This document shows, piece by piece, positions 18,473 to 28,329 of a DNA stretch of 49,559 bases. The stretch is from positions 1 to 49,559 of the forward strand of contig CALXSR010000032.1 of NCBI GenBank assembly GCA_944391215.1. The letters are read 5' to 3'. The stretch is from an uncultured Clostridia bacterium (GTDB lineage: Bacteria; Bacillota; Dehalobacteriia; UBA4068; CALXSR01). Under the pieces are notes generated by a model, which worked only from the letters and a program-made list of their open reading frames with translations, had not been told where the DNA came from and did not search any database. The position numbers and the translations under genes were made by a program. The number at the start of each line of letters is the position of its first letter. Within the stretch, counting starts at the first letter, position 1.

Positions 18473-19180
18473 ATGGAAAAAGTAAGGATTCATGTCTCTA
18501 AGACAGTTTTCTTGCCCAAAAGCGAACCGGATATGGGGAAAATTCAGGAAATTACCGTTACACCCCATTTAGAAAAATGTGATGAAGAAAGTAAAATATG
18601 CAAAGGCACCATAGATTTGAAGATTAATTATACTTTGCCGGAATGTATGTGTGAAGAAGTGGCCAGTACTTGGCAGGCTAATTTAAAATTAGATTGGCAG
18701 GATGAAATTGCTTACCCCTGTGCTATTGAGGGAACGCCTGATATCAGTTTGGAGGATTTGAATTGGCAGCAGCTGGAAGAAAGAGCACTTGAACTTGACT
18801 TAACCATGATTTTAGCCATTGCAGAACAAGAAAAAGAGCAATTGGTGGTGATTGATGCGGCGGAAGATACCAGCGTGCCGCAAATTAAAATAGAAAGTAA
18901 AGAGGAAGAAAAGGAGAAAGTAATTCCTGCACCAAAAACAGAACAAAAAGCGGTAGAGGGAAAAGCGCAGGTAACCTATCGTAAGGATAGTTTGGATTTG
19001 GATGCCCTTGCTTCTAGTGTGGCAACTTACCGGCTTTGTTTTTATCGCGTGCAAAATGGTGAAGATTTAGATGCGGTGGCGGAAAAACATGCTTTAAGCC
19101 GTGAAAGCATTATCGCGGCCAATCGGGTTGGTGAGGAGGACATCAAAACGGGGATGTTGCTTACCATTCCTACCAGATAA
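18473..19180 (+). CDS. DUF3794/LysM spore-coat morphogen-like protein (SpoVID/SipL type)
   Basis: A 235-residue protein without signal peptide. The N-terminal about 110 residues resemble one DUF3794 unit (VRIHVSKTVFLPKSEPDMGKI). An acidic/lysine-rich linker (about 140-170) follows, and the end (about 185-235) is a LysM domain (YRVQNGEDLDAVAEKHALSR and IKTGMLLTIPTR). DUF3794 plus LysM is the architecture of SipL and SpoVID, mother-cell proteins that tether the spore coat. Only one DUF3794 copy is seen here, so it is a shortened version. A strong GGGAGGGG SD and a following terminator mark it as its own unit. Confidence 0.72.
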   Translation: MEKVRIHVSKTVFLPKSEPDMGKIQEITVTPHLEKCDEESKICKGTIDLKINYTLPECMCEEVASTWQANLKLDWQDEIAYPCAIEGTPDISLEDLNWQQLEERALELDLTMILAIAEQEKEQLVVIDAAEDTSVPQIKIESKEEEKEKVIPAPKTEQKAVEGKAQVTYRKDSLDLDALASSVATYRLCFYRVQNGEDLDAVAEKHALSRESIIAANRVGEEDIKTGMLLTIPTR

Positions 19181-19190
19181 AAGCGAAGTA

Positions 19191-19217
19191 AAAAGCCGGC
19201 TAAGGCCGGCCTTTTTT
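19191..19217 (+). terminator. Rho-independent terminator after the LysM protein gene
   Basis: GCCGGC and GCCGGC arms (self-complementary) around TAAG, with flanking A and T runs. Confidence 0.88.
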
Positions 19218-19247
19218 GTCACTAAAATAAGCCTTATGGCATAGATT
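19218..19247 (+). promoter_or_regulatory. Possible sporulation (sigma-E-like) promoter of the CotS-like gene
   Basis: GTCACTAA, 14-bp spacer, CATAGATT, located 26 bases before the TTG start and after a terminator. It resembles the mother-cell sigma-E consensus and has the same 14-bp spacing as the candidate upstream of the LysM protein gene. Confidence 0.35.
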
Positions 19248-19272
19248 GGGCAATAGATAAGGGGGGAGGCAT

Positions 19273-20262
19273 TTGCCGGATTATGAAGAGATTTTGCGCT
19301 TTTACCATGTGCAGGCGCAGGAAATCAAAAATATTCAGGCGGGTGTGGCGAAAGTCATAACCCCACAAGAAAACTTCTGTTTAAAAGAGTGTAAAATTTC
19401 TTCCAGCAAATTGTTTTTTATCCAACAAGAATTGTCGTTTTTACCGCAACGCGGTTTTTGCCATCTTTCTTTACCTATTTTAAATAAGGATCATGCCTTA
19501 TGGACTTTTCACGCGGGAAAATATTATTCCCTTTTTCCGTGGATCAACGGTTCTGCCTGCGATTTTCATAATTCGCATCATCGGCGGGCAGCGGCGAAAA
19601 ATTTAGCCCGTTTCCATAAAGCGGCCAAAGGGGGCGGCCCTATGCGGGGGATGCGCCGGATGTATGATAGCTGGCCTTATTATATGCAAGCGAAGGAACA
19701 GGATTTATGGAATTGGCGGGAACAAACAGCCAAGCCAAAAAATGCTTTTGAACGATATTTTCATTATGTAACACCCTATTATTTGCAAAGAGCGCAAAAG
19801 TCCAGACAAATGTTGGCAAACTCTGCTTATACGCAAATTGCCCAAAAGGCAGCCGCGGAAAATACCTTTATCCATTGGGATGTGGCGCCGCGCAATTTTA
19901 TGATTGGCGGCGATGGAGAAGCCTGGCTGATTGATTTTGACTATTGTCGTTATGATTTGCCATTACAAGACATCATTCGTTTATTGCAAAGAGGAATGAA
20001 AGCAGTTGATTTTGATTTGCGAGCTTTCGATGAATTATTGATGTCTTATCACCGCATACAGCCAATCAGCTGGGAAGAATTACAGGTTATTGCGGCTTTT
20101 TTAATTTTTCCCCAACGGTTTTGGCGTTTGGCGGAACGCTATTTTAATCAAAAGGAGCCACGCAATGTTTCTGCCTTTTGTAAAAAAATGGAAGAAACGG
20201 AAATTCGTTGCTGCAAAGAAGATGAACTAGATAATTATTTTCTTGCATATTATTGTCTTTAA
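19273..20262 (+). CDS. CotS-like spore protein with aminoglycoside phosphotransferase fold
   Basis: A 329-residue kinase-fold protein. The catalytic loop is present as FIHWDVAPRNFMI (Asp and Asn) and the metal motif as WLIDFDYCRYDLP. The N-terminal lysine is in CLKECKISSSKLFFIQQEL. CotS-family proteins lie on the spore coat in Bacillus and may phosphorylate a glycan or protein; the substrate is unknown. TTG start with GGGGGGAGG upstream. The next gene, a GT4 glycosyltransferase, follows by 13 bases; the CotS/glycosyltransferase pairing also occurs in Bacillus (cotS with cotSA), which supports the call. Confidence 0.82.
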   Translation: MPDYEEILRFYHVQAQEIKNIQAGVAKVITPQENFCLKECKISSSKLFFIQQELSFLPQRGFCHLSLPILNKDHALWTFHAGKYYSLFPWINGSACDFHNSHHRRAAAKNLARFHKAAKGGGPMRGMRRMYDSWPYYMQAKEQDLWNWREQTAKPKNAFERYFHYVTPYYLQRAQKSRQMLANSAYTQIAQKAAAENTFIHWDVAPRNFMIGGDGEAWLIDFDYCRYDLPLQDIIRLLQRGMKAVDFDLRAFDELLMSYHRIQPISWEELQVIAAFLIFPQRFWRLAERYFNQKEPRNVSAFCKKMEETEIRCCKEDELDNYFLAYYCL

Positions 20263-21975: not shown

Positions 21976-22004
21976 TTGACAAATGCCTATGAATCCTTTA
22001 AAAT
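21976..22004 (+). promoter_or_regulatory. Strong sigma-A promoter of the tRNA pair
   Basis: TTGACA (21976-21981), 17-bp spacer, TAAAAT (21999-22004), 19 bases before the first tRNA. Confidence 0.85.
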
Positions 22005-22023: not shown

Positions 22024-22100
22024 GGCGGTGTAGCTCAGTTGGTCAGAGCACTCGGTTCATACCCGGGGTGTCATTGGTTCAAATCCAATCACCGCTACCA
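22024..22100 (+). tRNA. tRNA-Met (anticodon CAT)
   Basis: A full 77-base cloverleaf. The acceptor GGCGGTG pairs with CACCGCT, with a G-U at the first pair. The D arm is normal, the anticodon stem CTCGG/CCGGG encloses loop TTCATAC, the T arm contains GGTTCAAATCC, and CCA is encoded. The CAT anticodon could also mean the lysidine-type isoleucine tRNA, but the body resembles elongator Met tRNA. Confidence 0.93.
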
Positions 22101-22103
22101 TAC

Positions 22104-22180
22104 GGCGCGTTGGAGAAGTGGCTTAACTCACCAGCCTTTCACGCTGGCATTCATGGGTTCGAATCCCGTACGCGTCACCA
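22104..22180 (+). tRNA. tRNA-Glu (anticodon TTC)
   Basis: A 77-base cloverleaf three bases after tRNA-Met. The acceptor GGCGCGT pairs with ACGCGTC, the anticodon stem CCAGC/GCTGG encloses loop CTTTCAC, the T arm is GGGTTCGAATCCC, and CCA is encoded. It is cotranscribed with tRNA-Met. Confidence 0.95.
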
Positions 22181-22182
22181 AA

Positions 22183-22207
22183 AACCTGCTGATTAGCAGG
22201 TTTTTTT
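22183..22207 (+). terminator. Rho-independent terminator of the tRNA pair
   Basis: AACCTGCT and AGCAGGTT arms around GATT, then a T run. Confidence 0.93.
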
Positions 22208-22275: not shown

Positions 22276-22283
22276 TGTCGTAA
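22276..22283 (+). promoter_or_regulatory. Spo0A-box-like site upstream of spoIIE
   Basis: TGTCGTAA differs by one base from the 0A-box core TGTCGAA over its first seven positions. It lies about 30 bases upstream of the -35 element of the spoIIE promoter. Confidence 0.5.
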
Positions 22284-22308
22284 TTTTATGGCTATGGACA
22301 AGCCTAAT

Positions 22309-22341
22309 CTGACAAGTTTTGCGCTTCCTTCGTCTTATAAT
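22309..22341 (+). promoter_or_regulatory. spoIIE promoter with 21-bp spacing
   Basis: CTGACA (22309-22314) and a perfect TATAAT (22336-22341) are separated by 21 bases. This is the abnormal spacing known for the Spo0A-activated sigma-A promoters of spoIIE and spoIIG in Bacillus subtilis. The spoIIE start is 40 bases downstream. Confidence 0.65.
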
Positions 22342-22381
22342 CTAGAAAAGGAAAGAAAAATGAAGCCGGGAAGGTGAAACT

Positions 22382-24787
22382 ATGTCAGAAAATCCACAAG
22401 TATATCCTTTTAAGCGCCAGGAAGAGGCAAGTGATTTGGCTTATGTCCCCTTGCATGCGCCCGGCAAAAAAATTTGGCAAGCCGTTACTCAATTTAATGT
22501 ACAAGTTGTTTTTTTTATTGCCGCTGCTTTTTTGTTTAGCCGTGCGCAGTTATTGGGCGGTCTATATCCTTTTGGCCCTGCCTTTATTGGCGCTGTAGCC
22601 ACTTTATATAGAAGACAGGGCTTTTTGGTTGCGCTGCCGGTTTTAGCCGGTTATTATACCATTGTTTCGGGTATGGAATTTTACCCTTACTTGGCAATTT
22701 GTGTTTTATTGGCGATTATTTTTTTCTTTTATCAGGTAGATAGCCATAAACAATGGATGTTAACACCCTTATTGGTGGGTTGTACGGTTTTAATTTGTAA
22801 AGGACTGTTTTTGGTGTTTTATGGGGCTACTGGTTATGAATTAACGGTAGCTTTGTTTGAAAGTTTATTTGCGGCTGCCCTTTCTATTGTATTTTTGGTT
22901 GTTTTGGGCGGTTTGCGCCGATTGGATTTTAATCGACATTTTAATCCGGATGAAACAGTTTGTTGTTTTGTTGCTTTATTGGGTTTGGTAAGCGGCTTTG
23001 GTACCTGGTCTATAGCTGGCATTGGCATGAATCAGGTGGCAAGTTGTTTGGTGATTTTATTGGCTGCTCTATTAGGGGGAGCGGGGACCGGAGCTGGTAT
23101 TGGGGCATTGGTGGGAGTTGCTCCCAGTTTATCGGCTCTGGTTGCCCCTTCGGTTATTGGTACCTATGCCTTTTGTGGACTTTTGGCCGGCGCTTTTCGT
23201 ACTTTTGGCCGCATTGGCACTGCGATTGGTTTTATTTTGGGAAATTTGATTTTATCTTTATACTTGTTTAGTCAAACACAAATTACCCAGGCAATTTTGG
23301 CAAGCGTTGCGGCGGCCTTTTTGTTCTTTTTGGTGCCGAACAAATATGTGGTACAACTGGAACGTATTTTTAGCCCGCGTTCTTTAAAAAGCAGCAGAGA
23401 AGAGAAAGAGCAGCGCCTATTGCGGCTATCCGCGCGCAAGCTGCGCAATGCCGGTTTGGTTTTTAAAGATTTGGCTTTATCCTTACAAGAATTATCGCAA
23501 GATGATAAGGAGCCTTTAGAAGAAAGCGTCAATACGGTTTTAAATCATCTTTCCCGTCGCATTTGCGCCGATTGTTCCGTACGAGATATTTGCTGGAAAA
23601 TAGACTTTTCCGATACCTATCGAGGGGTGATGGGCTTATTTAAAGCAGCGGAAGAACATGGGGCGGCCGCTATGAATGATGTGCCGGAAAACTTTAAAAA
23701 ACGCTGTCCACATATGAAAGAGTTATTGGCAACCATAAATTGTTTATATGAAATGTATTGCCAAAATAATTATTGGCAGGCGCAAAGGCAAAGCAGCCGT
23801 AGTTTATTAGCCAGCCAGTTACAAGGTAGCGCACAGGTATTAGAGGGGTTGGCAAGAGATTTAGGCGTCGGCAATCCGGATCGCGATATTCTTGAAAAAG
23901 AATTGGGATTGTCTTTGGCCAGACGCGGACTGCCGGTAGAATCCATTGCTGTTAACCATTGTAAAGATAAAATGGTTTCGGTTTGTGTTAATTTTAACCA
24001 TTGTCCGGGGGAAGGCATGTGCCGGGAAGGCGTAACCAGAGAGATATCTCGTCTTTTAGGCAGAGAATTCCGCTTGCAGGAACTAACTTGTTCTACAGGG
24101 TGTACGGAAAATTGTCGTTATACGTTATTAGAGGAAGGCGCTCATCAATTGGCGGTGGCCAAAGCGCAGCTGGCTAAAGATGGCAAAGGGATTTGCGGGG
24201 ATTGCGGTGGAACGGTGTTATTAGAATCCGGCTTGCAGTTGATGATGATTAGCGATGGAATGGGCGCCGGGGCCACAGCGGCCAGAGAGGCCAATGCCGC
24301 TTTATCGATGTTATCGCGCCTTTTGGAAACCGGTTTTACAAGAGATACGGCGATTGATACCGTAAATGCGGCGATGGCTTTGCGTAGTCCTTCGGAAACT
24401 TTTGTCACTTTAGATTTGTGCATGGTGAATTTATATAATGGGCAAGCGGAGTTTGTAAAAACCGGAGCGGCGCCCAGTTTTATGAAGCGAGGCAATGAGG
24501 TAAAAGTAATTGAGGGCAGAAGCCTGCCGGTGGGTATGCTAACGGCAGTGGAAAAAGAGGTTATTGAAGAGCAAATCCAAGTAGGTGATATGATTGTTAT
24601 GGCTAGCGATGGTTTATTGGATGTAGGCAATAAAACGGATACCGAATGGTTAGCTTCCGTATTAGCGCAGTATCAAGGCCAGGACCCGCAAGGATTGGCG
24701 GAATATTTATTGCATCGAGCCGTGGACATTTCCGGCGGTCGGCTGCGGGATGATATCACCGTATTGGCAGTGCAAATGACTGCCTAA
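22382..24787 (+). CDS. spoIIE: Stage II sporulation protein E (PP2C phosphatase)
   Basis: SpoIIE dephosphorylates SpoIIAA to activate sigma-F in the forespore and interacts with FtsZ at the polar septum. The 801-residue protein has about ten hydrophobic helices in residues 37-325, a central regulatory region with cysteine pairs (CADCSVRDICWK), and a C-terminal PP2C domain (about 600-800). Metal-binding motifs are visible in MISDGMGAGATAAREAN, MASDGLLDVG and the final LRDDITVLAV. The length and layout are normal. This gene is the strongest proof that the organism is an endospore former. Confidence 0.97.
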   Translation: MSENPQVYPFKRQEEASDLAYVPLHAPGKKIWQAVTQFNVQVVFFIAAAFLFSRAQLLGGLYPFGPAFIGAVATLYRRQGFLVALPVLAGYYTIVSGMEFYPYLAICVLLAIIFFFYQVDSHKQWMLTPLLVGCTVLICKGLFLVFYGATGYELTVALFESLFAAALSIVFLVVLGGLRRLDFNRHFNPDETVCCFVALLGLVSGFGTWSIAGIGMNQVASCLVILLAALLGGAGTGAGIGALVGVAPSLSALVAPSVIGTYAFCGLLAGAFRTFGRIGTAIGFILGNLILSLYLFSQTQITQAILASVAAAFLFFLVPNKYVVQLERIFSPRSLKSSREEKEQRLLRLSARKLRNAGLVFKDLALSLQELSQDDKEPLEESVNTVLNHLSRRICADCSVRDICWKIDFSDTYRGVMGLFKAAEEHGAAAMNDVPENFKKRCPHMKELLATINCLYEMYCQNNYWQAQRQSSRSLLASQLQGSAQVLEGLARDLGVGNPDRDILEKELGLSLARRGLPVESIAVNHCKDKMVSVCVNFNHCPGEGMCREGVTREISRLLGREFRLQELTCSTGCTENCRYTLLEEGAHQLAVAKAQLAKDGKGICGDCGGTVLLESGLQLMMISDGMGAGATAAREANAALSMLSRLLETGFTRDTAIDTVNAAMALRSPSETFVTLDLCMVNLYNGQAEFVKTGAAPSFMKRGNEVKVIEGRSLPVGMLTAVEKEVIEEQIQVGDMIVMASDGLLDVGNKTDTEWLASVLAQYQGQDPQGLAEYLLHRAVDISGGRLRDDITVLAVQMTA

Positions 24788-24811: not shown

Positions 24812-24848
24812 AGAAAGAAGCACGGTAACGATTCCGTGCTTTCTTTTT
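24812..24848 (+). terminator. Rho-independent terminator after spoIIE
   Basis: GAAAGAAGCACGG pairs with CCGTGCTTTC around an eight-base loop, followed by TTTTT. Confidence 0.9.
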
Positions 24849-24865
24849 GGGAGGAATGCGAAACT

Positions 24866-26224
24866 GTGGACAGTTTGGAACAAAAAGTAAAAAAATATAT
24901 TAAAGAACAGGGCTTATTGCAAAGTGGCGATAAAGTGTTGGTAGCGGTATCCGGTGGGGCGGACTCCATTGCTTTGTTGCAATCTTTATATTCCTTAAAA
25001 GATGAGCTGCAAATTGAAGTTTGCGCCGCGCATTTAAACCATATGTTAAGAGGGGAAGAATCGGCCGGCGACGCGGTGTTTACCCGTTCTTTTTGCGATA
25101 GTTTGCAAATTCCTTGTCAGGTAGAATCCATTGCTGTAGCGCAGGAGGCGAATGGCGAAAATTTGGAGGATACCGCGCGTAAAATCCGTTATGATTTTTT
25201 GCGTAGAGCACAAAGATTGTTTGGGGCGCAAAAAATTGCTACCGCCCACCATGCCGACGACCAAGCAGAAACGCTATTGTTGCATTTAGTGCGCGGCGCA
25301 GGCTTAGAAGGCTTGGCTGCTATTGCCCCGCAGGAAAAAGATTTAATTCGCCCTTTTTTATGTGTCGATAGGGAGGAAATTTTGGCTTATTTAGTGCGAC
25401 AAGATTTAGCGTATCGCACGGATTCCAGCAATTTTTCCGATAGGTATCGACGCAATCATATGCGAAAATATCTATTACCGATGTTGCGGCAATATAATCC
25501 ACAGGTTGTGATGGCTTTAAACCATACCGCCTCAATTTGCCGCGAGGACAATACTTATTTGGAAGAGCAGGCAACAAAAGTTTATCATGCAATGGTGCAA
25601 AAAACAGAAGGCGGTGTGCAATTACCTTGGCATAAATTACAGGAATTGCCTTTGTCTTTGCGCAGAAGGGTTTGCAAATTGGCTTTTTGGCAAGCAGCGC
25701 AGGAGCCTTTATGGTTAAGTTATGAACATCTGCAGGGTTTTTGTGAAATGAAACCAGGGATGGAATTGGCTTTGCCCGGGCATATTTTTGCTTGGCGAAA
25801 AGAAAAAAACTTATATATTGGGACGATAAGACAGCCGCAAAATATTTGGCCGGAGGAACAGTATCCTTTGTCTGTGCCGGGAGAGGTTTTTTTACCGTAT
25901 TTTCATAAAAAAGCGTATGCTTATATTGGCAATGCGCCGGACAAAGAATTACCTGCAAATGGCATGGAGTTGGTTTTGCCTTTGCGTTTTTCTCGTGATT
26001 TATATTTTCGTACCAGAAAAGCAGGCGATACTTTTTCTCCTTGCGGCATGCAAGGGCGAAAAAAATTGAAGGAATATTTTATTGATGAAAAAATCCCAAT
26101 CAAGGAAAGGAATCAAATTCCTTTGCTTTTTGCCGGGGAGGAATTGCTTTGGATTCCTGGTAAAAGAAGAAGTGCTTTGACGCAAAGCGCACAGGAAAAA
26201 GTAATTTGGGTGTCGATTCGTTAA
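24866..26224 (+). CDS. tilS: tRNA(Ile)-lysidine synthetase
   Basis: TilS attaches lysine to C34 of the CAU-anticodon isoleucine tRNA, so that it reads AUA. The PP-loop ATP motif SGGADS is at 29-34, followed by HLNHMLRGEES and the TAHHADDQAETLLLHLVRG segment. The C-terminal about 180 residues form the tRNA-recognition domains, ending in the usual GRKKLKEYFIDEKIP and LLWIPGKRRS motifs. GTG 24866 is chosen because GGGAGG is 11 bases upstream; the open frame back to 24836 lies inside the spoIIE terminator. The gene hpt, often found between tilS and ftsH, is absent. Confidence 0.95.
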   Translation: MDSLEQKVKKYIKEQGLLQSGDKVLVAVSGGADSIALLQSLYSLKDELQIEVCAAHLNHMLRGEESAGDAVFTRSFCDSLQIPCQVESIAVAQEANGENLEDTARKIRYDFLRRAQRLFGAQKIATAHHADDQAETLLLHLVRGAGLEGLAAIAPQEKDLIRPFLCVDREEILAYLVRQDLAYRTDSSNFSDRYRRNHMRKYLLPMLRQYNPQVVMALNHTASICREDNTYLEEQATKVYHAMVQKTEGGVQLPWHKLQELPLSLRRRVCKLAFWQAAQEPLWLSYEHLQGFCEMKPGMELALPGHIFAWRKEKNLYIGTIRQPQNIWPEEQYPLSVPGEVFLPYFHKKAYAYIGNAPDKELPANGMELVLPLRFSRDLYFRTRKAGDTFSPCGMQGRKKLKEYFIDEKIPIKERNQIPLLFAGEELLWIPGKRRSALTQSAQEKVIWVSIR

Positions 26225-26358: not shown

Positions 26359-28329
26359 TTGAACCGAGTTTTTAAAAATGCATCGATTTTTATCATGATT
26401 TTGCTCCTAGTTTTAGTGGCCTATTCTTGTAGCAGTCCTTTAAATAGCACTCCTTCTGCTTTGGATTATAATCAGTTTATGACCAGAGTGGAAAATGGGG
26501 AAGTGGCAAAGGTAACTGTTGTGGCGGAAGAAAGCCGTTATGTGGTATCCGGTACTTTAACGGATGGAACCAATTTTACGGCTACTGTGCCTCCGGTCCC
26601 AGATCTGTTAAATACATTAAGAGAAATGAATATTCCTACCTCTTATGATAAAGCGGAGGGTAGTCCGTGGTGGGCTAACCTTTTGGCTACTTTATTGCCG
26701 ATGTTGTTGCTGATTGGGTTCTTTATGCTGATGATGCAGCAGAGCCAGGGCGGCGGCGGCAAAGTGATGCAATTTGGTAAAAGCCGGGCTCGTTTGGCCA
26801 ATGATGAGAAGCAGAAAGTAACCTTTAAAGATGTTGCAGGTGTGGACGAGGCCAAAGAAGAGTTGGCGGAAGTGGTAGACTTTTTAAAAAGCCCCGGGAA
26901 ATTTACCAAAATGGGTGCTAAAATTCCAAAGGGTATTTTATTATATGGCCCTCCCGGTACTGGGAAAACATTATTAGCAAAAGCGATTGCCGGGGAAGCT
27001 GGGGTTCCTTTTTTCACCATTTCCGGTTCGGATTTTGTGGAAATGTTTGTCGGGGTTGGTGCTTCCCGGGTACGGGACTTATTTGAACAGGCGAAAAAAC
27101 ATGCTCCCTGCATTATTTTTATTGATGAAATTGATGCGGTAGGGCGGCAAAGAGGCGCCGGTTTGGGCGGCGGACACGATGAAAGGGAACAAACCTTAAA
27201 CCAACTTTTGGTAGAAATGGATGGCTTTGGGGTTAATGAAGGGATTATTGTTATTGCCGGTACCAATAGACCGGATGTTTTGGATCCTGCTTTACTACGG
27301 CCAGGTCGTTTTGATCGTCATATTGCTGTTGATGTGCCTGATGTGCTAGGTCGAAGAGATATTTTGAAAGTGCATATTAAGGGAAAACCTTTGGCAAAAA
27401 ATGTGGATTTAGATGTGTTAGCACGGCGTACGCCCGGTTTTACCGGGGCTGATTTAGCGAATATGCTGAATGAAGGAGCGCTTTTGGCGGCCCGTCGTGG
27501 TAAAACGATTATCGAAATGGATGATTTGGAAGATGCGATTGAAAGAGTGATTGCCGGTCCGGAAAAGAAATCTCGTATGGTAAATGAAAAAGAAAAGAAA
27601 ATTGTAGCCTATCATGAAGCGGGCCATGCCGTACTTTCTTATTATTTACCAAATGCGGATCCCGTGCATAAGGTTTCGATTATTCCACGCGGTCGTGCCG
27701 GCGGTTATACTTTATTATTACCGGAAGAAGACAAAAACTTTGTTACCAAATCGATGATGGAAGATGATATCGTCATGCTTTTGGGCGGGCGAATGGCGGA
27801 ATTGCTTGTGTTAAAAGATGTGAGCAATGGCGCGCAAAACGACCTGGAAAGAGCGACGCATATTGTTAGAGAAATGATAACCCGTTATGGCATGAGCGAG
27901 GAATTGGGACCCTTGACTTTTGGTAAACAGCCTGAACAAGTATTTTTAGGGCGTGATATCTCCCAAGAAAGAAATTATAGCGAAGCGATTGCTTATAGTA
28001 TCGATAAAGAAGCGCGGCGTATGATCAATGAAGCTTATGAAAGAGCGCGTACAATACTAGAAACGCATATGGATAAATTAGTAGAAGTCGCGGAAGTTTT
28101 GATGGTGAAAGAAACCATTGATAAAGATGAGTTTTATCGCATTATGCGCGGTGATACCGAAGCAGAACTGCAAAATACGGAAGGAAATTCCCAAAACAAA
28201 AATGGCAAAATAGAGCATGACAAAACAGAAAATGCAGTGGAACAGGAAGTGCTTTCTGACCCAAAGCCGGCGCCGCCGACGGAGGAACAAAACTTCGTAG
28301 GCGGTATACAGACTCCTGAAAAGAGGTAA
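26359..28329 (+). CDS. ftsH: ATP-dependent zinc metalloprotease FtsH
   Basis: FtsH is a membrane-anchored hexameric AAA+ protease that degrades misfolded membrane proteins and short-lived regulators and is needed for sporulation in several Firmicutes. Two membrane helices (about 8-27 and 105-126) flank an extracytoplasmic domain. The AAA module has Walker A GPPGTGKT (197-204), Walker [12 protein letters not shown] and the [19 protein letters not shown], and the zinc-protease motif HEAGH is at 419-423. The 656-residue protein ends in a long polar tail. TTG start with AAGGAGG upstream. Confidence 0.98.

Follow-up and report, generated by a model that had tools for sequence, protein, structure and literature searches.

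A spoIIE promoter layout with 2 putative 0A boxes and a 21-bp spacer recurs across families of the Bacillota

In Bacillus subtilis, a −35-like hexamer lies 21 bp from the −10 element of the spoIIE promoter, which York et al. reportedly described in 1992 as a sigma-A/Spo0A promoter. The spoIIG promoter of the same species is also served by sigma-A and Spo0A, with Spo0A located at the −35 region and an over-long spacer, and Spo0A binds to tandem boxes as a dimer. Control of spoIIE by Spo0A is already known in both B. subtilis and C. difficile. In the latter, according to the accessible part of the source, the Spo0A DNA-binding domain bound the region upstream of spoIIE with low affinity in EMSA (PMC3485338), and the accessible part of a study from 2026 gives predicted boxes at spoIIE, one of them near the −35 region, and likens their position to that in B. 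subtilis (PMC13395437). In C. difficile, spoIIE is further controlled through methylation at a neighboring CAAAAA site (PMC13395437; PMC3485338). Since these excerpts report direct binding of Spo0A upstream of C. difficile spoIIE (PMC3485338; PMC13395437), that part is not new. A spoIIE promoter geometry that is fixed across the phylum was not found in the literature searched, most subscription journals lying outside the scope of the search.

The window examined here, by which we mean the whole analyzed stretch of 49,559 bp, belongs to a genome of 1.79 Mb in 53 contigs, which alone represents its family in the sample. Its spoIIE gene (22382 to 24787, forward strand) encodes 801 amino acids and matched the TIGR02865 profile with 579.3 bits at a cut-off of 490.8 bits. 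Upstream of the ATG at 22382, we read from the sequence a ribosome-binding site, GGGAAGGTG (22368 to 22376), a consensus sigma-A −10 element TATAAT (22336 to 22341), which is conserved in position and ends 40 bases before the start codon, the hexamer CTGACA (22309 to 22314), and a 0A box, TGTCGTAA, on the forward strand (22276 to 22283). The original prediction had placed CTGACA and TATAAT 21 bp apart, which is exact (the spacer covers 22315 to 22335), and a 0A-box-like site about 30 bp further upstream, which agrees with a box that starts 33 bp before CTGACA and is separated from it by 25 bp. Transcription is predicted to start at 22346 to 22350, on the assumption that the general rules for sigma-A promoters apply.

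The layout resembles that of the B. subtilis spoIIE promoter in that the same gene is preceded by a sigma-A −10 element, a −35-like hexamer at 21 bp and 0A boxes, activation by Spo0A being predicted here. It differs from that promoter in that the hexamer in the class of the host is usually a reversed 0A core and not TTGACA. Like the C. difficile promoter, as far as the excerpts describe it, it has predicted 0A boxes upstream with one close to the −35 region, whereas the letters CAAAAA are absent from both strands of 22276 to 22341.

We consider it very probable that the segment from 22276 to 22341 is the promoter of spoIIE and that it is activated by Spo0A~P on 2 facing 0A boxes, the second of which would replace or re-aim the contact of sigma-A with a −35 element. 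Box 1 (TGTCGTAA), whose aligned position is conserved, has 1 mismatch to the core TGTCGAA, and box 2, TGTCAGA on the reverse strand (22308 to 22314), which contains the −35-like CTGACA, has 2, so that each box is weak alone. Their centers are 32 bp apart, which corresponds to about three helical turns. A conventional −35 element at 16 to 18 bp from the −10 element was rejected as a candidate, the best match to TTGACA at these distances being 1 of 6 letters, and with no −35 element at a usable distance the sigma-A polymerase should start poorly alone. In the proposed mechanism, Spo0A~P would occupy box 1 (22276) and box 2, facing each other, and box 2 would sit at the −35 location, 21 bp from the consensus −10 element. 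Spo0A~P on box 2 would then most likely touch or re-aim region 4 of sigma and seat the polymerase on the −10 element, with box 1 assisting from the same side of the helix at a distance of three turns, and Spo0A would in this way lead to SpoIIE, the phosphatase on the path to the release of sigma-F. We infer Spo0A binding, the use of sigma-A, the polymerase contact and the start site at this promoter.

The genome also encodes a Spo0A protein (L001, 1072 to 1830) in which the residues NTTASRVERAIRHAIE, which we take to be the recognition helix, were unchanged in an alignment with 1fc3 and 1lq1, two solved Spo0A DNA-binding domains. The geometry is of the spoIIE type, and its recurrence in the phylum sample described below, as expected of an ancestral promoter activated by Spo0A, supports the original interpretation, as does the presence of this protein. 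We have assumed that this protein is the acting regulator of spoIIE, alongside 2 further Spo0A-type proteins. One is a second full-length Spo0A-like protein (L003, 1480 to 2253, reverse strand) in which the region of the recognition helix differs (NQTTVECVESAIRKAIE), and the other is an orphan Spo0A-type DNA-binding domain of 119 amino acids (L002, 1471 to 1830, forward strand).

To the class of the host belonged 43 sampled genomes with 41 SpoIIE loci, of which 2 lacked upstream DNA and 39 had readable upstream regions. A GACA core preceded a TATAAT-like −10 element in all 39 loci, at 21 bp in 35 and at 22 bp in 4, in a search that required GACA and left the spacing free from 14 to 25 bp. The best match to TTGACA at 16 to 18 bp reached at most 2 of 6 letters in 37 of the 39 loci. 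Box 1 (TGTCGNAA, at least 6 of 7 letters) started 32 to 33 bp before the hexamer in 28 loci, was displaced in 3 (best at 27 to 28 bp, with a mismatch), and was degenerate in 8, all of which belonged to family f4. The class loci cannot be counted as independent, since a single genus accounts for 9 of the 10 f4 genomes.

A SpoIIE match was identified in 230 of 249 genomes from the phylum, and 126 loci from 57 families, all outside the class (10 class members were excluded), were used. These were the loci in which the match began near the start of the profile, rows that started inside the profile or were unlisted being dropped. The pattern GACA-N21-TATAAT (at least 5/6) preceded the gene at 86 of the 126 loci, which represent 44 of the 57 families, and was seen on the reverse strand in 1 family. 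Spacings of 20 and 22 bp occurred in 3 and 11 loci, respectively, and shuffles, which preserved single-base composition only, gave about 1.75 per spacing. When all four-letter words were compared at spacings from 8 to 69, GACA at 21 was the top pair (44 families). The words that overlap it came next, and after them GTCG (at 55) and TGTC (at 56), each in 22 families, which together with GACA make up the 2 boxes.

A blind motif search by EM on the 126 regions, to which neither GACA nor TATAAT was supplied, converged on TGTCGAAAA...TGACAAATTTT...TATAAT, although no site could be assigned with confidence in 5 regions and several weaker sites are apparently wrong. The resulting matrix, trained with no member of the class, had its best match on both strands of the window at 22276 on the forward strand (31.3 bits; next 15.2 bits), and it recovered the site found by hand in all 39 class loci, if one base is allowed for the 22-bp spacer. 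In the spacer of the window, a T-tract (22318 to 22320) and the C at 22322 correspond to the conserved motif positions 42 to 44 and 46. The blind search had picked the 21-bp match itself at 77 of the 86 loci, which represent 38 families, and the other 9 matches may represent chance or other promoters. No GACA was present at 21 or 22 bp in 12 of the 57 families; in many of these the EM site fell on TACA, AACA or GCCA variants, and in f51 on a different-looking site. A search of a named genome collection with the SpoIIE protein of the window yielded 8 loci, 5 of them partial. Just upstream of SpoIIE, the matrix scored 31.0 and 21.7 bits in 2 of these (L005 and L006) and 10.8 to 13.7 bits in 4, the other strand scoring higher in L009, and it gave nothing at L008 and L012.

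The identity of CTGACA can be judged from which bases are conserved. The opposite strand shows a core of the 0A type, TGTCAGA, and in the 0A consensus TGTCGAA the specifically contacted bases are G2, C4 and G5, according to the accessible part of the source (PMC3485338). In the family-weighted motif, conservation across the phylum was highest, at 2.17 bits, for the C that pairs with G2 (position 37), followed by A38 (1.74 bits), with A36 (1.30 bits) and G35 (1.11 bits) comparable to the bases of the −10 element. The class hexamers were GCGACA in 19 loci, CTGACA in 6, CCGACA in 6 and others in 8, with TTGACA in 1 of the 39; their first two bases, which are important for a −35 element, vary, and what is kept is GACA, which corresponds to TGTC in the core of a 0A box. 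These sequences favor reading CTGACA as another 0A box, in reverse orientation, over a mis-spaced −35 element. A conserved C at motif position 27 (22303 in the window), ten bases upstream of the partner of G2, hints at a second weak half-site, as needed by a Spo0A dimer on tandem boxes. This putative half-site (22298 to 22304, reverse strand) lies 10 bp upstream of box 2, and its only conserved base is the C at 22303, the partner of G2 of a 0A box.

The most serious alternative, to which we give a distinctly smaller but real chance, is that box 2 is a true −35 element to which sigma-A binds first, after which Spo0A~P displaces the polymerase downstream by about 4 bp and onto the −10 element; such a repositioning model is known for B. 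subtilis spoIIG, and it would leave the promoter unchanged and differ only in the step at which Spo0A acts. CTGACA matches TTGACA in 5 of 6 letters, 21 equals 17 plus 4, and the hexamer is TTGACA in 11 families outside the class. Moreover, 7 loci outside the class carry a further −10-like word, such as TATACTATAAT, which overlaps TATAAT and follows the very same GACA at 16 bp, so an ordinary promoter spacing is possible there. Against a −35 element that is bound first stands the class hexamer, which is GCGACA in about half of the loci and TTGACA in a single one, with GACA kept and the first two bases variable; GACA was demanded in the class search, but not in the blind EM search. In the window, the spoIIE promoter has no second −10-like word at 16 bp. 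Among the 126 loci, GACA at 16 bp (12 matches) and at 17 bp (10 matches) was likewise above the shuffles, most of the other such matches being separate TTGACA promoters further upstream within the 400-bp regions. It was also noted that the 7 loci with overlapping −10 words at 16 and 21 bp (L070, L071, L074, L079, L123, L134 and L137) could possibly combine an ordinary and a Spo0A-dependent start from one box.

The layout most probably descends from an ancestor that lived early in the history of the endospore formers. A single genome could not show the ancestry of Spo0A activation, as the original prediction had proposed, but support for it comes from the 57 further families surveyed. We lean slightly toward the stronger proposal that the two-box, 21-bp promoter is a single orthologous element that has stayed in register since that ancestor, its fixed part being the footprint of Spo0A, which would permanently replace the contact between sigma-A and a −35 element. 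Repeated origin, with the common geometry being the sole layout that allows Spo0A to activate the sigma-A polymerase, appears improbable to us. The layout can evidently arise at other genes, since the spoIIGA genes of the class share GACA-N21 in 12 of 30 loci and family f11 has the full layout before 2 unrelated genes. However, it occurs upstream of the orthologous gene in most of the sampled families, with the spacing locked within about 1 base, and it lies behind a tRNA-Met/tRNA-Glu pair in 22 of the 126 phylum loci and in 7 of the 39 class loci; descent would be the simpler explanation of these sequences. The shared tRNA neighborhood as such was rejected as proof of descent, because in 81 of the 126 phylum loci no tRNA lies on the same strand within 900 bp.

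It is very unlikely that spoIIE is transcribed mainly from another promoter, either a sigma-H promoter or a sigma-A promoter with a spacer of 16 to 18 bp, or by read-through from tRNA genes, and that the 21-bp site is minor. In the window, genes for tRNA-Met (cat, 22024 to 22100) and tRNA-Glu (ttc, 22104 to 22180), both on the forward strand and identified by ARAGORN and the Rfam tRNA model, are located just upstream and are preceded by TTGACA-N17-TAAAAT at 21976 to 22004. Read-through is nevertheless unlikely because a terminator-like hairpin of 11 pairs followed by a T-run (22180 to 22205, forward strand) intervenes, which should terminate the tRNA transcript ahead of the spoIIE promoter; the hairpin is a consensus match in a pattern scan, and matches of this type are also given by chance (6 per 2.5 kb compared to 4.5 expected from shuffles). 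A scan between the hairpin and spoIIE showed no promoter-like site with a spacer of 16 to 18 bp, and the blind search settled on the 21-bp site alone. The sigma-H-like GCAGG of a spoIIA-type promoter was absent between box 1 and the start of spoIIE. A sigma-H-like AAGGAGAAA at about 22256 had no matching −10 element and no conserved counterpart, and was rejected by inspection only.

Chance resemblance can be dismissed, for although GACA-N(20-22)-TATAAT gave 11 matches in the genome of the host compared to 15 for the reversed control pattern, so that the short pattern alone proves nothing, the results of the class and phylum surveys refute it. The short-pattern matches near other genes in the same genome, of which 3 of the 10 outside spoIIE (L178, L185 and L187) were inspected, were taken as chance. 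A composite pattern, GTCGNAA-N(20-32)-GACA-N(20-22)-TATAAT, which allows 13 box distances and 3 spacers (39 geometries), was matched 26 times in the 43 class genomes, each time just upstream of the spoIIE gene of that genome, compared to 1 match for the reversed control. This is far beyond chance. The composite pattern was absent from 17 of the 43 genomes, a group that includes the genomes with TATACT and those whose box 1 is degenerate. In the 249 phylum genomes it gave 65 matches versus 33 for the reversed control, which shows that the pattern is specific in the class, but not everywhere. The exact geometry of the window (27, 21) was seen in 37 of the 65 matches, and a gap of 26 to 27 with a spacer of 21 to 22 in 59. 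By position, 34 of the 65 matches were at spoIIE, and 12 more by the Pfam domains of the downstream gene; 6 from the same families as verified matches are left outside this count. The remaining 13 could not be placed at spoIIE and comprised 1 match each at an antitoxin-like ORF, at a gene for a signal peptidase and at one for an SLH protein, 4 cytochrome-like places (2 of them tested), 3 sites without an ORF in the tested stretch, and 3 on contigs other than, or far from, the listed spoIIE.

The example in the window is ordinary, and the wider interest lies in the depth and exactness of the conservation. If the stronger proposal made above is correct, the spoIIE promoter would rank with the oldest promoters for which base-by-base conservation is known, and it would provide a near-signature for true spoIIE genes and for sporulation competence in uncultured genomes. 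The age of the link from Spo0A to spoIIE thereby becomes testable from sequence. Within the class, the one composite pattern finds spoIIE promoters only, in those genomes where it matches. With a spacing that is constant within about 1 base across distant families, the alignment also shows which bases to mutate. The results suggest that the 21-bp spacing is not an oddity of Bacillus, but a constant property through which spoIIE stays silent in the absence of Spo0A~P.

As controls within the class, we examined 30 spoIIGA and 30 spoIIAA loci from the 37 and 38 genomes, respectively, in which a match was found. GACA was present at 21 bp in 12 of the 30 spoIIGA loci and in none of the 30 spoIIAA loci, whereas GCAGG occurred within 200 bp upstream in 29 of the 30 spoIIAA loci. 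In B. subtilis spoIIG, Spo0A is likewise located at the −35 region with an over-long spacer; in comparison, the box sequence and the upstream box are looser in many class loci, and in family f3 the box lies within a hairpin. No clear 0A box was seen in the spoIIGA promoter of the host genome (L198). The control patterns are as expected from the split in B. subtilis, in which sigma-A serves spoIIG and sigma-H serves spoIIA, according to the accessible part of the source (PMC12090719).

We noted a strong hairpin in 12 of the 30 class spoIIGA promoters, all in family f3, where it was present in 12 of 14 loci (L190, L192, L193, L196, L201 to L204, L208 and L212 to L214), and in none elsewhere. The z values ranged from −3.9 to −6.8 against single-base shuffles, and changes on both sides were seen in 3 of the 9 consensus pairs. 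The inner 5′ arm consists of the 0A box, TTGCGA, and the T-run merges into the −10 element, so that the hairpin looks like a putative terminator fused to a Spo0A promoter. We also noted that one genome (G046, with the same matched strings in G088) has the full two-box, 21-bp layout before 2 genes (L252 and L253) for proteins with secreted-looking first residues, and with cytochrome-c-like plus fibronectin-III/Ig-like or IPT/TIG domains. Here the layout may possibly reflect Spo0A control of extracellular electron-transfer proteins.

Some further observations concern the surroundings of spoIIE. At locus L043, a long palindromic repeat that contains TGTCGCAAAATTTGCGACA, with 2 facing 0A-like cores, was located between tRNA-Glu and spoIIE, upstream of the promoter. 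Downstream of spoIIE in the window are tilS (24836 to 26224; TIGR02432/TIGR02433) and ftsH (26359 to 28329; TIGR01241), both on the forward strand. The ftsH gene follows directly after tilS, with no hprT between them, whereas in Bacillus the hprT gene is located between the two. On the other side, at 18473 to 20262, the window encodes a LysM protein with a weak match to the C-terminal part of SpoVID (25.7 bits at a cut-off of 169.85), adjoined by a protein with a phosphotransferase fold (APH family) that is reminiscent of the CotS group.
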